Below, one piece after another: positions 11,992-20,213 of a stretch of 64,000 nt of DNA. The position numbers were made by a program, and so were the translations under genes. The notes beneath the pieces were generated by a model. The model was not told the origin of the DNA. It ran no database searches and saw only the letters and a program-made list of their open reading frames with translations. This stretch comes from Polyangiaceae bacterium (lineage in GTDB: Bacteria > Myxococcota_A > Polyangia > Polyangiales > Polyangiaceae): contig JABSRN010000008.1 in NCBI GenBank assembly GCA_013214025.1, forward strand, positions 1-64,000. Reading direction: 5' to 3'. Within the stretch, counting starts at the first letter, position 1, and the number at the start of each line of letters is the position of its first letter.

Positions 11992-12064
11992 CGGCCGGGT
12001 TGTGCGATGTCCGGGGCCGAGCCGCGGAACGAACTTTGTTTGTCCGCGACCGGTCGAGCTAGAA

Positions 12065-13033
12065 ATGTTACCGCGACGAACCGAAGATTACAGAACGCTG
12101 TTCTGGACCTGCGTGTTGGCGCCGGCCTTAGTCGTTCTGCACTATTCCCGTCCCGAACTCGGTCCCTACCTTTGTGCGCTTAGCTGTTACTTCGGTCTCG
12201 CCTGCGGAGTGATTGCTCACAATCACATGCACCGACCCACCTTCGGTGAGAAACTCCCCAATACGTTGTTCTCGTCGTGGATTTCGGTGTTCTACGGATA
12301 CCCTGTGTTCGCCTGGTTGCCGACACACAACATGAATCATCACAAGTTCGTCAACAAGAACGGCGACGCGACGATCACCTGGCGTTTCACCAACAAACAC
12401 AATGCGGTGGTCGCCGGCACTTATTTTTTCGTGAGCGCCTATTACCAGGGGGCTTGGATTCAGTCCTTCATCAAGAAGGCGCGAACCCAGAAACCAGCTC
12501 TGTTCAGGCGAATCGTTCTTCAGTACTCCACCGTGTACGGTGTGCAAGCGCTGATGCTGGGCGTGGCCATTGCACGGCACGGCCTGTCCGTTGGTTTCTT
12601 CGTCTGGTTGTTCGCCATGGGCATCCCAGCAATTTTTGCGCTCTGGGCGATCATGCTCTTTAACTACACTCAGCATGTGCACACGGATCCGTGGAGTGAC
12701 TGGAACCATTCAAGAAATTTCGGGAGCTGGTCTCTCAATTTTTTCTTGTTCGGTAACGGCTTCCACACGATTCATCACGAAAAGCCCAGCTTGCATTGGT
12801 CAGATGCAAGGGCAGAACACGCGAAGGTCGCCCACAAGATGAGTCCGGAGCTCATCCAGCGAAGCTTCTGGTGGTTCATGTTCAAGCAGCATTTCTTAGC
12901 TATTCTGTTCCCGAAGTTGGGAACTGTGCAGATGGGCCGCGCTCCTTTTGATCCACCGGAGGGGGCTCCGGAGCCCGACGAAGCCGCCCAAGTTGTCTTG
13001 TGCGAAGCGGGCTCCAACGCCGTGAAGGTTTAG
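12065..13033 (+). CDS. Membrane fatty acid desaturase (di-iron)
   Basis: 322 residues from the ATG at 12065; an in-frame GTG at 12002 would add a non-conserved leader. The three histidine clusters that hold the di-iron site are present in order: HNHMH (52-56), HNMNHH (88-93) and HTIHH (234-238), plus a further HVH at 204-206. Hydrophobic segments around 12-50, 115-130, 155-200 and 220-232 give the usual membrane layout. The enzyme should introduce a double bond into a fatty acyl chain using O2 and an electron donor. The convergent neighbour encodes a cytochrome b5 and flavin-reductase fusion, a type of protein that could supply electrons, though the two genes are not co-transcribed. Regioselectivity is unknown. 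Confidence 0.88.
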   Translation: MLPRRTEDYRTLFWTCVLAPALVVLHYSRPELGPYLCALSCYFGLACGVIAHNHMHRPTFGEKLPNTLFSSWISVFYGYPVFAWLPTHNMNHHKFVNKNGDATITWRFTNKHNAVVAGTYFFVSAYYQGAWIQSFIKKARTQKPALFRRIVLQYSTVYGVQALMLGVAIARHGLSVGFFVWLFAMGIPAIFALWAIMLFNYTQHVHTDPWSDWNHSRNFGSWSLNFFLFGNGFHTIHHEKPSLHWSDARAEHAKVAHKMSPELIQRSFWWFMFKQHFLAILFPKLGTVQMGRAPFDPPEGAPEPDEAAQVVLCEAGSNAVKV

Positions 13034-13053: not shown

Positions 13054-16000
13054 TCAGCGCTCCCCGATCGCGAACTTGATGGCCGTGCTCTCGCTCTGGG
13101 TCGCGAGGGAATAGTGAAAGTCGTCGCGATTGAGACGGTTGACCTGCAAGACACCGATGGCGCTCTCGAGTAACACGGCGGTTCTCGCAAAATGTCCGAC
13201 CAGCTCACGCCGCAGGCGGGCCATGGTGCGTTCGAAGTCTGGATCGTTGCGAACGGGGGCGTTGCGCAGATCGACGACCAGCCCAAATTGCGAATGCGCG
13301 CGGCTGCGGCATTGCAGAATTTGTTCGTTCTGCGTGGATAGCTCGCCGAGGCTTCGGAGAGCGACTGGCATCCGCCTCAATACGACCAGTTTGCGCTCTG
13401 TGAACTCTTCGAGGATCCAAAGATGGCTGGTGACGAGCCGTAGCGGCGGAGCGTGCGCGGCGCGAATGGGCGGGGGCGGCATGGTCCGGCGCAGTTCAAA
13501 CTGCTTCTTCGATCTGAGCTCGTCGCAGACCCGAGAAAAGTATCCCGCCACCACGTCAATAGTGCTCCGCCCGGCATGCATCAACGAACGGGCACCGCGT
13601 TCAGTGGTGCGCTCTCCATGCTGTTCAAATACGGAAAGACCAGCGATCAATATAATTTTCAGATCCGATAACAAGCGTAAATCTTGCGATTCGAGGTGCT
13701 CCAACATGTCTACCAGAGTCTTCGGCTCGGGAAGATCGTTGGCGGGGGTGACCATGAGCTCGCGGGCGAGGGCCTCGCACCACACTCCGTCGTCGGATTT
13801 GCGAAGGTCGGATATTCGATTAGTCGCCCACATCGCATCGGCAGCGGGAGCGAACAGTCCCTGAGTCAGAGTCCACAGTCCCGGGAGTGTTTCGTCCAGC
13901 AATAGATCGAGATGACTCCGGTAGAATCGTTGGTGAGATTCGATACTCCGGGAAGTCTTGTAGGGTGTGCGCTCGGATTCCGGATCCCCCCGTACACTGG
14001 TTGCCGTCTGGAGTGCCTGGTCCGCACGTAAAGCATTCTGCATTTCCACCACCAAGTGAAGCGCGTGTTCCCAAGCACGGTGCACATTGACGGGAGAGAT
14101 GGTGCGCACGCCGCTCGGTCCGCTGACGACGGCCTCTTCCCGGCCTAGTTGCAATCGTTTGACGGCACCGATGCGATACATCTGTTGCATCGCGATAATT
14201 TCAGCCCGTGATTGATGTGCTCGTTCGAAGCCTTCTGAGGCGTCCATGCCCGCGTAGGCTCTGAGAATTCGCGCCCCGCCCGGATGCAGATTAATGAACT
14301 CGGTGACGTCGTACACAGCACCGTCGATGATCAGCCAGTATCCGTGTGTCTCATCGTTATGGCGGGCGACGTCTGACACATGATAAAAAATGGGTCCGTT
14401 CTCGGCCTGCGCGGAGTCGCTGTAGATCTCCATCAGAAGACGCCCCTCCGCTACCAGGCCGTAGAGAACGTTTTTTGCGGCGAGCTCTCGCTCTTCTGCA
14501 TCGCCTGCATGGAAGCGCTCTAGCATTCGTTGCAAGGAATTCAGTACGGTCTTGGCGAATCCGCTCCGTCCGCAAATGTAAACATTCGCTCCCTGCCCGC
14601 CGTGGCTCTGGCTGAGGAGCAAGTCCCAGAGGCGCTCTGCATTGTCGGGATCCAACATTCGCTCCTCGATCCGACACGGGGTGCCGGCGGTCGTGACGAG
14701 GCCGTGCTCTGGGTCATGCCGAATGGAGACGTCGTCGCGGGAGAAGGTGACGTCGAGTCGGAAGCCCCCGGCCTCGAGAGCCGCGGTGAATTCGTCGGCG
14801 TATTGAAAATCTTCACGGGACTTGAGCCCGAGAAATAGCCATGTCAGCGAAGCTTCCGAGCGGGTCCGATCGGCGATGAAACTTCGGAAAGGTGATACGC
14901 CGGTGCCGCCAGCAAGCAGGACCACCGGTCGCCGAGGATCGGAAGGCAGCTGAAACCGAGGTGGGCGCTGCACAAAAAACGCGACTCTCTGCTGATCGGA
15001 ATCCGCTAAGAAGGCTGACGCAGTTCCCTCGCAAGCGGTGTCAGTTTGCTTGGACTGATAGCGCAGTCTCCCGACCGTCAGCTGCAGTCTCTTCGCCGCT
15101 TCGATTCGCGCACCCCCTGTGATGGAGGAGATGGAGTACATGCGAAAGCGCTCTGGCGGAATCAGCCGGGAGAGCTTGTCGTTGGCCCCGCGGGCATGGT
15201 GCCACAGCCCTCGAGGATCGAATCCGTCTGCTCTGAGTGCGTCTAGAATTTCCCAGAGCTCCCAGTCTTCTGTTGTCAGCTGGGAAATGGTGCCCCGCAG
15301 GATGGGGCTCTGGGAGCGGGCATGCAGGGCTTCTGCCACTCGTAGCGTAACGGGACGGATGCGCCCGTAGCGAAGGATATCGCGGGCGGGCAGGGTGTTC
15401 GAGCCTCGGCTGTCGAGGTGGGAACGACGGGCTTCCAGCCATTCTGGAGTCAGCGAGATGGCCTCGTCGCCGCTTGCCCCGAGTGCTAGAAGGGTACGTT
15501 CGACCAAGCGGTCCGTGTTCTGGGGCAGGATGCCGCAGCGATCGCCGGGCTCATATCGCACGCCCGTGCCTTCCACGTCCAACTCCAGATGGTACACTCC
15601 ATGTGTCATCTGGGTCGGATCTACAATGGGCTTGATGGTCGCTTCTTGCACAGGTTGAGGTAGACGGACGACTCGCTCCTTACGCGAAGCTTCGAGGGCG
15701 TTGTCGATTTCGTCCCAGGTTCGATCCTTGAACATGCCATCGAATCCGCCGATCGTTACGCTCCGCCCGACTTTGAACGCGATTTCGATGTAGCTGTAGA
15801 CCTTCATCTTGTGTCGGCCGAGAAAGCCATTCTCGCCGGCGTAGACTTGGAAGGTTTCTCGGAATGCGCCTGCGAGTAGGTCGGAGTCGGTTCGCTTGAT
15901 GTACTCCCCAATGGACACCTCAGTGAGCGAGACTAGGTACTCGCGCCACGCCAGAGGGTAGGTATTTCGGAGCTCTTTGATTTCGCGACCTAGGAATGTC

Positions 16001-17877
16001 GCGTGGTCCTTCCGCCCGAAGAAGATATCCATTGCGTTGAAAATCGGCGATGAGGTCCCGCTCGGTCCCTGCACATCGGGGTGAAAGGGCACCGCGAAGG
16101 GGGCGACAGTTTTGGCCCACACAACCGGGTCAACGTGACTGCCGCTACGAGGGTTTGGATTGATTTTTAGCAGAGATCCGTAGACGATGCGGGACAGTAC
16201 GGCGTGCATCGAGAGCAGTTGGGCTTCCAGTGATTCCGGATCGTCTTGAAGTACGGCTTCCTGAGCGTTGGCCATGGCTAGAACAATGGGGCCGCTACGA
16301 GCTAGGATTTCAGTCTGAGTAAGATAAAATGTGCGTTCCTCCTTGTTGTCCACGGTCGGCACGAGCAGGCGCATGTTCTCGATACAGACTGGATCGGGAA
16401 GCGATGGGTTCAACAGCCGCCAGTTGTAGACGATAAGGTCGATGTAGTTGATGACCTCAGGACCCCGGTCCAGACGCTGCCGAACCACCTTCCAAGGTTT
16501 GGAGAGCGCGTGAGGGAGAACGTCCGGTGGCTGAGGCTCGACATACCAATACGCGTGGGACAGAATCGCCAGTATTGAACTCGCGCGAAGCAGGTCGCCA
16601 GCGCTCAGATTTTCTTCGCCGGCGTCGAGCACGGGCAGCTCTTCGATTCGCCGTCGGAGGTGCAGGCTTCGGTACAGGTCGGGTAACTCCCCGGCGATCT
16701 GGTCCCAAGCGGCGTAGGCCGACGACAGGGACAGCCGCGGTTGTTGCTGCGGCATGAGTCCGTGGGACGCGGACAAGAACCCGGCATTTTCGTTGCCGGC
16801 AACTTGGTTTCGTTGTTCGGCACGCGCAATCGCGATGGACGCCGGCGCGATGGGCACGTCCTCGGGGGAACCGGGGTCAAGGCTGATGGATTCGCGTCGC
16901 CCCGCCAGGATGACCGGGGGCGGGCGAGAACTGATTCGAGTTGGCCCGACTAAGGGAGTTTGACGAGCCCCGCTTTCCATACGGCCTGCGTATTTGTACT
17001 CGCGGTCGAACTCGTGAAGAAAATTGTTGAGATAGCTTCGCTGGCTGTCAGTGAGTTCTCCGGTGTCGACGAACTTCTGTTCGTTGCCGCTACTGGTGTC
17101 CATACGGCGCAGGAAAAGTAGCGTGCAGTCTTTCCCTGCCAGCAGGCTTCTTAGGTAGTGGTGCGATTCCCTTGCCGCGGACATGTCGAAGACGTGACCG
17201 TGCAATGCCGCGTAATGAGTGGATGCGGCTAGCTCCTTCTCTGAGATTAGGCTCGAGTTAGCTGGGGGAATAAATGTGGCATTGTCGGGGGAGGGGCAGA
17301 CTTTGGTCTCTTCGAGAGCGCTGATGTAGCTTGGCTCGATGCGCATTTCCTTGGCGCCCCGTACGAGGATATTCAAGTAGCGCTGGGAGGGGCGACAGCT
17401 GTCGTCCAATCGTTCTTGTCGTCCGACGTAGAGAAATGCGCGGACTCTGCGCCCGCTGTATGTAACTACGGATTGCTCGACTCGCTCGTAGCTGATCCCC
17501 ACAGCTTCCAGTCTGTCGAGTTGCGCCAGATCTGCATCCCGGCAGGCATGCAGCACGCCGTGCACATCGCTACCTGCCTTCCGCTGTACATTTCCAGTTC
17601 CCCCCTCGATTGGGAAGAAGTCTGGCAAGTTGAATCGAAGTTGCCAGTTGTGGAGGACAGCGGGCTCCGACGCGAGCGGAGTGCCGCCTTTGGCTCGCAA
17701 GGAAGCGACGCTGAGGTTCGAGCCGTAGCCGAAGTAGTAAAACACGTAGGGGAGGGGGAGAAAGAGAGCCCATAAACTACGGCGCGCGCAGCGGCGGGTC
17801 AATCTTGAGGTGACGGCTGTGCGTACGGTGCAAAGCGCGGGAGCGATTGGTTGGGATGGCCTTCCCGGTTTAGTCAT
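13054..17877 (-). CDS. Giant redox fusion: GGCT-like, IDO-like, P450-reductase-like, cytochrome b5, STAS-like
   Basis: 1,607 residues from ATG 17877; a TTG at 17910 adds 11, and no start has a good ribosome site. Order seen: (1) about 45-180, gamma-glutamylcyclotransferase-like, opening FYYFGYGSNL; (2) about 380-720, indoleamine-2,3-dioxygenase-like helices with PSGTSSPIFNAMD (605-617) and a likely heme-binding His689 in GRHKMKVYSYIE; (3) about 745-1150, FAD/NADPH reductase of the cytochrome P450-reductase type, with RMYSIS for FAD, GGTGVSPFR (990-998) and YICG for NADPH, but no flavodoxin part; (4) about 1160-1245, cytochrome b5 with HPGG (His1198) and a second His at 1221; (5) a helical link and a STAS/SpoIIAA-like end with VVDLRNAPVRNDPDFE near 1534. 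Each domain call is by eye. Electrons could flow NADPH to FAD to b5 heme to the IDO-like heme; that is inferred. Substrate unknown. Confidence 0.75.
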   Translation of the reverse strand: MTKPGRPSQPIAPALCTVRTAVTSRLTRRCARRSLWALFLPLPYVFYYFGYGSNLSVASLRAKGGTPLASEPAVLHNWQLRFNLPDFFPIEGGTGNVQRKAGSDVHGVLHACRDADLAQLDRLEAVGISYERVEQSVVTYSGRRVRAFLYVGRQERLDDSCRPSQRYLNILVRGAKEMRIEPSYISALEETKVCPSPDNATFIPPANSSLISEKELAASTHYAALHGHVFDMSAARESHHYLRSLLAGKDCTLLFLRRMDTSSGNEQKFVDTGELTDSQRSYLNNFLHEFDREYKYAGRMESGARQTPLVGPTRISSRPPPVILAGRRESISLDPGSPEDVPIAPASIAIARAEQRNQVAGNENAGFLSASHGLMPQQQPRLSLSSAYAAWDQIAGELPDLYRSLHLRRRIEELPVLDAGEENLSAGDLLRASSILAILSHAYWYVEPQPPDVLPHALSKPWKVVRQRLDRGPEVINYIDLIVYNWRLLNPSLPDPVCIENMRLLVPTVDNKEERTFYLTQTEILARSGPIVLAMANAQEAVLQDDPESLEAQLLSMHAVLSRIVYGSLLKINPNPRSGSHVDPVVWAKTVAPFAVPFHPDVQGPSGTSSPIFNAMDIFFGRKDHATFLGREIKELRNTYPLAWREYLVSLTEVSIGEYIKRTDSDLLAGAFRETFQVYAGENGFLGRHKMKVYSYIEIAFKVGRSVTIGGFDGMFKDRTWDEIDNALEASRKERVVRLPQPVQEATIKPIVDPTQMTHGVYHLELDVEGTGVRYEPGDRCGILPQNTDRLVERTLLALGASGDEAISLTPEWLEARRSHLDSRGSNTLPARDILRYGRIRPVTLRVAEALHARSQSPILRGTISQLTTEDWELWEILDALRADGFDPRGLWHHARGANDKLSRLIPPERFRMYSISSITGGARIEAAKRLQLTVGRLRYQSKQTDTACEGTASAFLADSDQQRVAFFVQRPPRFQLPSDPRRPVVLLAGGTGVSPFRSFIADRTRSEASLTWLFLGLKSREDFQYADEFTAALEAGGFRLDVTFSRDDVSIRHDPEHGLVTTAGTPCRIEERMLDPDNAERLWDLLLSQSHGGQGANVYICGRSGFAKTVLNSLQRMLERFHAGDAEERELAAKNVLYGLVAEGRLLMEIYSDSAQAENGPIFYHVSDVARHNDETHGYWLIIDGAVYDVTEFINLHPGGARILRAYAGMDASEGFERAHQSRAEIIAMQQMYRIGAVKRLQLGREEAVVSGPSGVRTISPVNVHRAWEHALHLVVEMQNALRADQALQTATSVRGDPESERTPYKTSRSIESHQRFYRSHLDLLLDETLPGLWTLTQGLFAPAADAMWATNRISDLRKSDDGVWCEALARELMVTPANDLPEPKTLVDMLEHLESQDLRLLSDLKIILIAGLSVFEQHGERTTERGARSLMHAGRSTIDVVAGYFSRVCDELRSKKQFELRRTMPPPPIRAAHAPPLRLVTSHLWILEEFTERKLVVLRRMPVALRSLGELSTQNEQILQCRSRAHSQFGLVVDLRNAPVRNDPDFERTMARLRRELVGHFARTAVLLESAIGVLQVNRLNRDDFHYSLATQSESTAIKFAIGER

Positions 17878-18140
17878 TTTCGATTCGTTCGAATTAGGGA
17901 GAGGACGCAACCCCGAGGGGAAGCGACGAGTATATCGCTGCCGGTTCAGCGCTCCTGGGCGGCCTTGTAGCTTTCCGATAAGGGGGTGCCGGTCGGGAGG
18001 CCGACAGTCGAGCGTCCCTTCGTCCAGTGCTGTCCCTGGGGCGGACGACGATACTTGTGGTGATGTGAGGACGGGATAGTTCTGTCCGAGAAGTCGGGGT
18101 CAGCCGCCGGATTCCGGAGTCAGTCTGATCAGAAAATGAG

Positions 18141-19787
18141 CTAATTCGTCGTGCCCACGCTCACCAACAAGCTCTCGCGCAGTTGCAGGGACTGGTGAAT
18201 TGCATTATTGAGCGTGCCCTTGTCTATGGGTTTCTCTAATAACCGGATCCCTCGATCGGATATGAACTGGAGAGCTCGCACAGTGGTCGCGCCGCCGGTG
18301 CAGAATACGAAGCGGCGCCGTAGCTGTGGCGCCAGCAGCGCGGCCTTTTCGTAAAACTCGATGCCGTTAACTATTGGCATCATCAGGTCGCACAGAATCA
18401 TGTCGAAGTTTTGATCGTCTTTGAGAAGATCGAGCGCGTCCTGTCCATCGTAGGCGACGAGTACATCGTGATACCGCCCCAGTGAGCGTCGGTAGGCGCG
18501 GACCAGCGCGACCTCGTCGTCCACTATCAAGATGCGAGCACGAACGGGGTCGGGATTCGGTACCCCGGTGGGTCGAACGGTTGCGGGGGCGAGCCCGGTT
18601 TCGGCGGGAAGCATGATTTCGAACCGAGCGCCTTGAGTGTAGGCGGGGTCCACCACGAGGCTGCCCTGATGTTGTCGGAGAATGTCGGAGCACAAGGACA
18701 GACCCAGTCCGGTCCCTCGATCGACGGACTTCGTGGTGAAAAACGGGTCGAATATTCGCTCTCGCATGAGCGGATCCACTCCCGGGCCGTCGTCTGTGAC
18801 GCTGAGTCGAATTCCCTCCGGAGTATCCGCCGACTCGACCACGATACTACCACTACCCCCGCCGCCGTCTTCGATTGCGTGGGCGGCATTCATCAGCAGG
18901 TTGACGAGGACTTGGACCAACTTGCCGCGGTCGGCTGCGAGAGTTTTCGTCGAGTTCAAACGGCGTTGGAGGGTGGCCGAATGGCGAACCTGCGCCCGCA
19001 CGAGATTGAGCGCGGTGATGACGGACTCGTTGGGATCGAAACGCTCAACGTCTTCACGATCGATTCGCGCGAAGGCGCGAAGCCCTTTCACAATCGTGGC
19101 TATGCGCCCCAGGCCTTCCAAGCAGTCCTCGACGCATTCGCCGGTTTCCGACAGGAATGTTCCTAGGATATCTTTCTTGTCGACATAGTCGTCGGAGTCC
19201 CTGAGCTTCTGGAGACTCTGAATCCCGTTGGCGAGCAACTCGAGATTTGTCAGCACGTAGGCGGCCGGGTTATTCACCTCATGGGCAATGCCAGCGGCCA
19301 ACTGTCCGACGGCTGCGAGTCGAGCGGAGTGGCTCAGCTGAGACTTGGCGTCGTGAAGATGGTCGTAGGTGTCACGGAGCTCACGTTTCCTATCTTCACG
19401 AGCTGAGACGTCGCGGACAAAGGTGATGTAGAGCCTTTTGCCGTCTATTTCGTAGCGGTGGCTCCGCAGATCGGCCCGAAAGATGCTGCCGTCCTTGCGC
19501 TGCAGTTCAATTGCATTTCGGGTCACGCTGTGCGCTTGCGTAATAGCGGAACTGATTTCGTCCACAATCTCGGATGAGCCTGGCGGATGAAGTTCTCGCC
19601 CCACTTTTCCGTGGAGTTCTGACGCTTCGTAGCCGAAGAGCTTGCACGCGCGTTGATTGACTTCAACGAACTCCGCCGAGTCGAAATCTGTGACGAAGAT
19701 GGCGTCGGAAGAGCACTCCACCAACGCGCGAAAGCGACATGCATCCGCGGACAGTTCCATTTTATCCGTCGGGGCACCGTCAGACAT
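18141..19787 (-). CDS. Hybrid sensor histidine kinase: PAS, HisKA, HATPase, receiver
   Basis: 548 residues from ATG 19787 (a TTG at 19817 is the longer option). A PAS domain covers about 17-130 (FRALVECSSDAIFVTD to ITFVRDVS). The dimerisation helix holds phospho-acceptor His169 in GIAHEVNNP, the form found in NtrB-like kinases. The HATPase part has NLLMNAAHA, DDGPGV, FFTTK and GTGLGLSL boxes. A receiver occupies 418-548 with DD in ILIVDDE, phospho-Asp467 in CDLMMP and Lys in EKP. There is no transmembrane helix, so it is a soluble sensor; the PAS ligand is unknown. With an attached receiver and no output domain it probably feeds a phosphorelay whose partner is not in the window. Confidence 0.9.
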   Translation of the reverse strand: MSDGAPTDKMELSADACRFRALVECSSDAIFVTDFDSAEFVEVNQRACKLFGYEASELHGKVGRELHPPGSSEIVDEISSAITQAHSVTRNAIELQRKDGSIFRADLRSHRYEIDGKRLYITFVRDVSAREDRKRELRDTYDHLHDAKSQLSHSARLAAVGQLAAGIAHEVNNPAAYVLTNLELLANGIQSLQKLRDSDDYVDKKDILGTFLSETGECVEDCLEGLGRIATIVKGLRAFARIDREDVERFDPNESVITALNLVRAQVRHSATLQRRLNSTKTLAADRGKLVQVLVNLLMNAAHAIEDGGGGSGSIVVESADTPEGIRLSVTDDGPGVDPLMRERIFDPFFTTKSVDRGTGLGLSLCSDILRQHQGSLVVDPAYTQGARFEIMLPAETGLAPATVRPTGVPNPDPVRARILIVDDEVALVRAYRRSLGRYHDVLVAYDGQDALDLLKDDQNFDMILCDLMMPIVNGIEFYEKAALLAPQLRRRFVFCTGGATTVRALQFISDRGIRLLEKPIDKGTLNNAIHQSLQLRESLLVSVGTTN

Positions 19788-20213
19788 GATGACCTGACAA
19801 CTTAGTCGTTGATGCAAAGGACTTCAATGTGGGTCGGTCCGGTGGTGCGTTTTCCGCAGACCGAGCTTCAGACGCGGTGCGGCACTGACTAACTTTTGAC
19901 TGGCTAGCCCAAAGTTGGTCAGTGCAAGCCACTGGATCTCCGGCAGGATAGCTAGGGACGGGTGCAGCAGAGGTGCCCGCTTGCCGTTTGCCTACACCGT
20001 GCCGGCCCCCATCGCTACCGTTGCGGCGGATGGCCAGACCAGGAGCTTGGGCGGAGTCGGCGTGAGCCCAGCGAGCCCCGCCCCAGCCCCGCTCGGAATC
20101 ACGCACCAAGCCACTGGAGGTGAATCCTCTATCAAGTCCATCTCCGGCTGTTCGAATTGCCGCGACGCCGTGCCTTCGCCCGACTAAAGTCCGGGATCGG
20201 AAAGGAACAGTTC
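19788..20213. other. 426-base intergenic region with one strong hairpin
   Basis: This space lies between the divergent histidine kinase and FecR-like genes and should hold both promoters. I see no gene or RNA family. A long inverted repeat near its kinase-proximal side is listed separately. A purine-rich GGAAAGGA just before 20214 is the likely ribosome-binding site of the FecR-like gene. Confidence 0.5.
19882..19925. repeat. 17-bp inverted repeat with 10-base loop
   Basis: Arms GCACTGACTAACTTTTG (19882-19898) and CCAAAGTTGGTCAGTGC (19909-19925) pair at 15 of 17 positions, and the two others can form G-U pairs in one RNA strand. It is 95 bases upstream of the kinase start on its strand. Possible roles are an attenuator or leader hairpin of the kinase mRNA or a protein-binding palindrome. 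Confidence 0.6.

Follow-up and report, generated by a model that had tools for sequence, protein, structure and literature searches.

The window, by which we mean the whole 64,000-nucleotide stretch analysed here, carries on its minus strand a single long gene that joins an indoleamine 2,3-dioxygenase (IDO)-type heme domain to a reductase, a cytochrome b5 and further domains. The gene is located on contig C163; the genome spans 5.8 Mb and is 97% complete. Translation of the window revealed zero internal stops in the minus-strand frame across 13054-17877 and many in the plus-strand frame, which confirms the uninterrupted frame of about 1,600 residues described in an earlier note on this DNA. 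The ORF extends over 13054-17910 (-), and the end given in that note, 17877, is its first ATG. Because homologues begin at the residue coded at GTG 17745, this is the probable start; the single long frame stands, and the protein is probably 1563 aa long rather than ~1,607. Residue numbering throughout is that of the 1563-aa protein. From N- to C-terminus, the order is GGCT-like, MAPR/PGRMC1-like b5 fold, IDO, FAD/NADPH reductase, cytochrome b5, helical and STAS-like. The features of the locus are as follows.

12002-13033 (+): fatty acid desaturase (Pfam PF00487), convergent with the fusion gene
13054..17745 (-): whole fusion gene, 1563 aa; probable GTG start 17743-17745, stop 13054-13056 (translation, homologue starts)
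17266..17745 (-): GGCT-like (GGACT/AIG2) domain, residues 1-160 (Pfam PF06094 1e-9, PF13772 1.5e-10)
16972..17253 (-): MAPR/PGRMC1-like cytochrome b5 fold, residues 165-258 (profile search)
15661..16803 (-): IDO-type heme domain, residues 315-695 (structure comparison; Pfam PF01231 1.9e-33, the alignment covering only the first half of the domain)
16315..16317 (-): Q477, at the human IDO1 S167 position in the distal pocket (profile alignment)
16102..16104 (-): A548, aligned with R231 of human IDO1, the substrate carboxylate Arg (profile alignment)
15811..15813 (-): H645, aligned with H346 of human IDO1 and the predicted proximal ligand of the heme (profile alignment to human IDO2)
14416..15633 (-): CysJ/CPR-type FAD + NADPH reductase without an FMN/flavodoxin domain, residues 705-1110 (PF00667, PF00175)
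14152..14394 (-): cytochrome b5, residues 1118-1198, with axial His H1154 (HPGG) and H1177 (Pfam PF00173 9.4e-22)
13471..14148 (-): conserved helical domain, residues 1200-1425 (family profile matches; long helices predicted)
13057..13428 (-): STAS/SpoIIAA-like domain, residues 1440-1563 (Foldseek, structure comparison)
18141..19817 (-): PAS-histidine kinase-receiver protein, encoded directly upstream of the fusion gene (Pfam)

Full-length relatives that share 42-50% identity over about 1,520-1,550 residues were found in independent assemblies, which rules out a unique chimera or assembly error; one of them sits on a single 10.3-Mb contig. An order-wide search returned eight relatives. Among the named genomes, a scan using a single protein gave no match and a scan using the IDO alignment gave 30 loci, with Polyangiaceae and Sandaracinaceae MAGs among the relatives; these point to Polyangiales-like myxobacteria as the order to which the window belongs. 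We assigned architectures by per-domain profiles and identified the IDO-reductase-b5-helical core in eight phyla (Myxococcota, Bdellovibrionota, Chloroflexota, Actinomycetota, Pseudomonadota, Cyanobacteriota, Bacteroidota and Armatimonadota), several of which are supported by MAGs, where a misbinned contig is possible.

The full seven-part form occurs in Polyangiales and in one Oligoflexus MAG (L087), the N-terminus of G080 being truncated by a contig end. An Oligoflexales MAG (L066) has the form without STAS, and the Polyangiaceae relative L062 combines the core with STAS and has neither GGCT nor MAPR. The core form was found in Chloroflexota, an actinomycete MAG, an alphaproteobacterial MAG, cyanobacteria, Aquimarina and Fimbriimonas; in L104, from the same phylum as the window, it is followed by a C-terminal sequence resembling two cyclic-nucleotide-binding domains. 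Actinomycetota of the genera Geodermatophilus, Modestobacter, Streptomyces and Herbidospora have an IDO-b5-helical form that lacks the reductase, and in a Saprospiraceae MAG (L074) IDO and b5 are adjacent separate ORFs. In a 44-row tree, one branch (support 100/99) sets all 32 fusion-family IDO domains apart, and another (support 100/97) carries the standalone IDOs. The fusion is thus no one-off but a family in eight phyla, with a single IDO clade at its origin.

A viral scan gave no confirmed relative, and among the matches listed in a plasmid search only the reductase part was matched, none covering 80%; a viral or plasmid origin was set aside on these results. The same phylum as the window also contains a second, deeply separate IDO-like group (L105:3603-6545, L106:5803-8682 and L107:5866-7905) with C-terminal sequence resembling cyclic-nucleotide-binding domains. 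In the window's own genome, contig C176 encodes a canonical standalone IDO of 381 aa (L058:6177-7319) with the Arg and the GTGGT loop, directly preceded by a 172-aa gene and a universal-stress-protein-like gene.

All parts named in the earlier note were found, and two further ones, the MAPR-like region and the helical domain, had been overlooked, the former having been counted with the GGCT-like start. The GGCT-like domain has the GGACT/AIG2 hallmarks YGSN at 7-10 and a catalytic-type Glu80. It is dispensable, since this Glu is missing in L063 and the entire domain is absent from L062. The adjoining region gave weak but family-specific profile matches (1t0g, 2.6e-4; 1j03, 2.7e-4; PGRMC1 4x8y, 9e-4), by which residues 165-258 are a second, degenerate, b5 fold of MAPR/PGRMC1 type. 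Y197 is near the Tyr of the PGRMC1 alignment but out of register with it, and L063 has Phe at this position; as the heme ligand is uncertain, we leave this domain out of the proposed electron chain.

The helical domain had no match to any sequence family, only coiled-coil-like chance matches in a sequence search of solved structures, and no convincing fold match among those listed in a structure comparison. A separate ORF of ~210 aa in G017 (L114:114-743; profile E 1.6e-23) corresponds to this domain and has no IDO or STAS parts. The STAS-like domain matched no Pfam model; its predicted structure is assigned to the SpoIIAA type by Foldseek (prob 1.0) and aligns to 2q3l with Z 10.4 and rmsd 3.0 over 114 residues. 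Numerous separate paralogues of it occur in related genomes, often as ORFs of 140-280 aa (L008, L010, L014, L017-L020, L023, L025). The GGCT- and STAS-like ends, which the earlier note took for possible binders of substrate or a partner, are both present, but they are clade-specific and absent from most relatives, and so the core reaction does not require them. The STAS, GGCT and MAPR-like parts may be clade-specific regulatory or partner-binding additions.

The predicted model of the IDO domain aligns with human IDO2 (9uz1; Z 24.4, rmsd 5.3, 337 residues), and it does so with both IDO2 and IDO1 out to their C-termini, at pLDDT <50 for residues 544-563 and 651-685. Seven of seven family members tested matched PF01231, the family profile aligns with human IDO1 across about 300 residues, and a broader profile matched human IDO2 at 1.1e-67 across 373 positions. 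The proximal heme His (H645 in the window) is kept in 30 of 30 family members. The IDO-like heme domain proposed earlier was thus borne out: the fold was found, its heme His is conserved, and the domains were not placed in unrelated folds.

The residue assignments in the pocket rest on alignment, the model being of low confidence along the active site; the human IDO1 numbers (R231, S167, H346) are the established ones. At the R231 position the family has Ala (28/30) or Gly (2/30) and never Arg, the residue of standalone IDOs, and at the S167 position it has Gln in 28 and Thr in 2 of 30 members. W543 and K545 are invariant (30/30). The active-site loop reads mostly SVTIGGF in the family versus VGTGGTPFM in standalone IDOs, in a register that is less sure than that of the other positions. 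Both the Arg and the GTGGT loop are retained in standalone bacterial IDOs, that of the window's own genome among them. Loss of R231 disfavours an amino-acid substrate held as in IDO.

These observations bear on the possibility that the protein is a genuine tryptophan/indoleamine 2,3-dioxygenase in which the reductase and b5 serve solely to reduce ferric heme, so that catalysis can start and be rescued. IDO is the closest heme fold, the reductase could simply keep the heme in its ferrous state, and IDO1 can be reduced in vitro by CPR and b5, with NADPH-CPR supporting catalysis by the human enzyme whether or not cytochrome b5 is present (PMC13142367). However, the Arg is replaced in all 30 members, the Ser by Gln or Thr, and the GTGGT-type loop by a TIGGF-type sequence; moreover, the genome already has an Arg-keeping standalone IDO. 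Kynureninase, a PF04199-type (Cyclase-type) formamidase and TDO were not found in this 97%-complete genome, and the absence of the first two also counts against this reading. We therefore regard it as distinctly unlikely. As the main reading, a tryptophan dioxygenase of the kynurenine pathway was rejected because of the altered pocket and the pathway genes not found.

The reductase matched FAD_binding_1 (1.2e-8) and NAD_binding_1 (1.3e-8) in Pfam, and a Pfam search of the protein gave no match to a flavodoxin/FMN domain. Its nearest counterparts are CysJ (1e-37) and CPR, matched solely outside their flavodoxin half, from the FAD part onward, in agreement with the reductase without flavodoxin described in the earlier note. 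In the window the motifs are RMYS, GGTG, SR and CG; the RxYS (FAD), the GGTG and CG (pyridine nucleotide) and the 2'-phosphate-type S/T-R are kept in nearly all members, with L085 deviating in several motifs. The cytochrome b5 with its HPGG was likewise correctly recognised, and both axial His are kept in all b5-bearing relatives compared.

Cytochrome b5 is present in every family form, and the reductase is missing from some. Because b5 persists where the reductase is lost, and because the Saprospiraceae MAG encodes IDO and b5 as separate neighbouring ORFs, b5 is the likely direct electron donor to the IDO heme. Cytochrome b5 often serves as donor to desaturases, and it could feed another partner than the IDO heme. 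The reductase-b5 part might thus donate to a separate enzyme, such as the PF00487 desaturase encoded next to it at 12002-13033 (+). That gene is convergent with the fusion, not co-directional, and homologues were not found beside other fusion loci, the one downstream in the window being the only case, whereas the IDO domain itself is the conserved partner at all loci. Donation to a separate enzyme is accordingly very improbable, and the adjacent desaturase was rejected as acceptor, since this neighbour is not conserved.

Examination of the genomic context revealed no conserved biosynthetic neighbour across the loci that would name a substrate. The kinase upstream of the fusion has a counterpart directly upstream of the L062 relative, with 50.9% identity over 511 aa to the window kinase (blastp). 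A CBS-domain gene lies immediately upstream of the fusion at five loci of four phyla (L064:6682-7200, L065:6783-7409, L071:6592-7476, L085:3651-4121 and L069:5858-7507), with 49-77% identity among loci. In Limnofasciculus baicalensis a standalone-type IDO gene (L081:3476-4600) directly follows the fusion and is itself followed by an amidohydrolase; in Chrysosporum bergii (L075) an amidohydrolase is also close to the fusion.

The upstream kinase and the CBS, STAS and cyclic-nucleotide-like parts suggest that the family may be under regulation. They could also indicate that the protein does not oxygenate a substrate but is a redox or gas (O2/NO) sensor, an NO dioxygenase or an NADPH oxidase, in which case the NADPH-reduced IDO-like heme would signal or react with small molecules. 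Signal modules do occur in or beside members: STAS in the window clade, CBS at the five loci, PAS-kinases upstream at two loci and the C-terminal pair of cyclic-nucleotide-binding-like domains in L104. The NADPH-FAD-heme logic also has a precedent in the flavohemoglobin-like NO dioxygenases. However, the conserved distal pocket, with its invariant W543 and K545, and the large IDO fold suggest a specific substrate, and no other NO-related gene was seen adjoining the fusion gene. We consider a role of this kind unlikely.

From sequence and predicted structure, the explanation that we favour, and consider reasonably probable, is a self-sufficient IDO-type heme oxygenase with electron flow from NADPH through FAD and b5 to heme. 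As predicted from its modules, NADPH would pass a hydride to the FAD of the CysJ/CPR-type module, the reduced flavin would hand electrons one at a time to the fused cytochrome b5, and b5 would in turn reduce the IDO-type domain's His-ligated heme, at which O2 could then be bound and a substrate oxidised. The complete chain proposed in the earlier note is plausible in that its components are in one polypeptide; the electron flow itself we infer. Of the NADPH-driven dioxygenase or oxygenase suggested there, the oxygenase outline is retained, and tryptophan dioxygenation is unlikely given the replacements at the R231 and S167 positions.

L-tryptophan bound in the manner of IDO is probably not the substrate, which may be aromatic. 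Dioxygenases are redox neutral and require electrons only for priming. Since the protein carries an electron supply of its own, conserved across phyla, monooxygenation, with two electrons per turnover, appears likelier than redox-neutral dioxygenation, and the family is more likely a monooxygenase acting on another substrate than a tryptophan dioxygenase. Several reports on related enzymes bear on this. Human IDO has monooxygenase activity and forms a monooxygenated product (PMC12921851). In the IDO/TDO-like MarE the electron donor steers the reaction to monooxygenation, and so does the active-site loop, which differs from GTGGS (PMC12312684). PrnB provides yet another reaction outcome; CPR and b5 were tried there and gave no product (PMC11791213).

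By the residues compared, the fusion protein belongs to the IDO fold family but lies outside the tryptophan dioxygenases. It has in common with indoleamine 2,3-dioxygenases (human IDO1/IDO2 and bacterial standalone enzymes) the fold, the proximal heme His, the Y126 position and the domain length, and differs in its Ala/Gly at R231, Gln at S167 and TIGGF-type loop, in being joined to reductase and b5, and in forming a separate clade. It resembles CysJ and NADPH-cytochrome P450 reductase (CPR) in its FAD and NADPH domains with connecting region, but it has no flavodoxin/FMN domain, and b5 comes after. Nitrate reductase and Ncb5or also hold b5 and flavin/pyridine-nucleotide modules in one chain; in the fusion, however, the reductase is of the CysJ/CPR type and the terminal acceptor would be an IDO-type heme. 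PrnB, MarE, TyrH and SfmD, compared by description only, share the IDO/TDO-type His-ligated heme and reactions beyond dioxygenation (PMC11791213, PMC12312684); in those papers none is described as having a reductase and b5 of its own.

We found no published description of an IDO-reductase-b5 fusion in the open-licence papers searched. We suggest, tentatively, that the family is the first self-sufficient His-ligated heme oxygenase: an IDO-derived subfamily of eight phyla, fed by NADPH, FAD and b5, monooxygenase-type and acting on a substrate other than tryptophan. The donor that reduces IDO in cells is debated, the in vivo role of CPR and cytochrome b5 having been called unclear (PMC13142367); a natural fusion found across phyla is independent evidence for b5 as a natural donor, and offers one purifiable protein for testing b5-to-IDO-heme donation. 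A true monooxygenase would add an NADPH-driven, self-sufficient member to the His-heme aromatic oxygenases, and possibly a biocatalyst. Like the self-sufficient P450s such as P450 BM3, the fusion joins an NADPH reductase to an oxygenase heme domain, with an IDO-type rather than a P450 heme and with b5 where BM3 has an FMN domain; if our reading is true, it would be the IDO-superfamily counterpart of P450 BM3.
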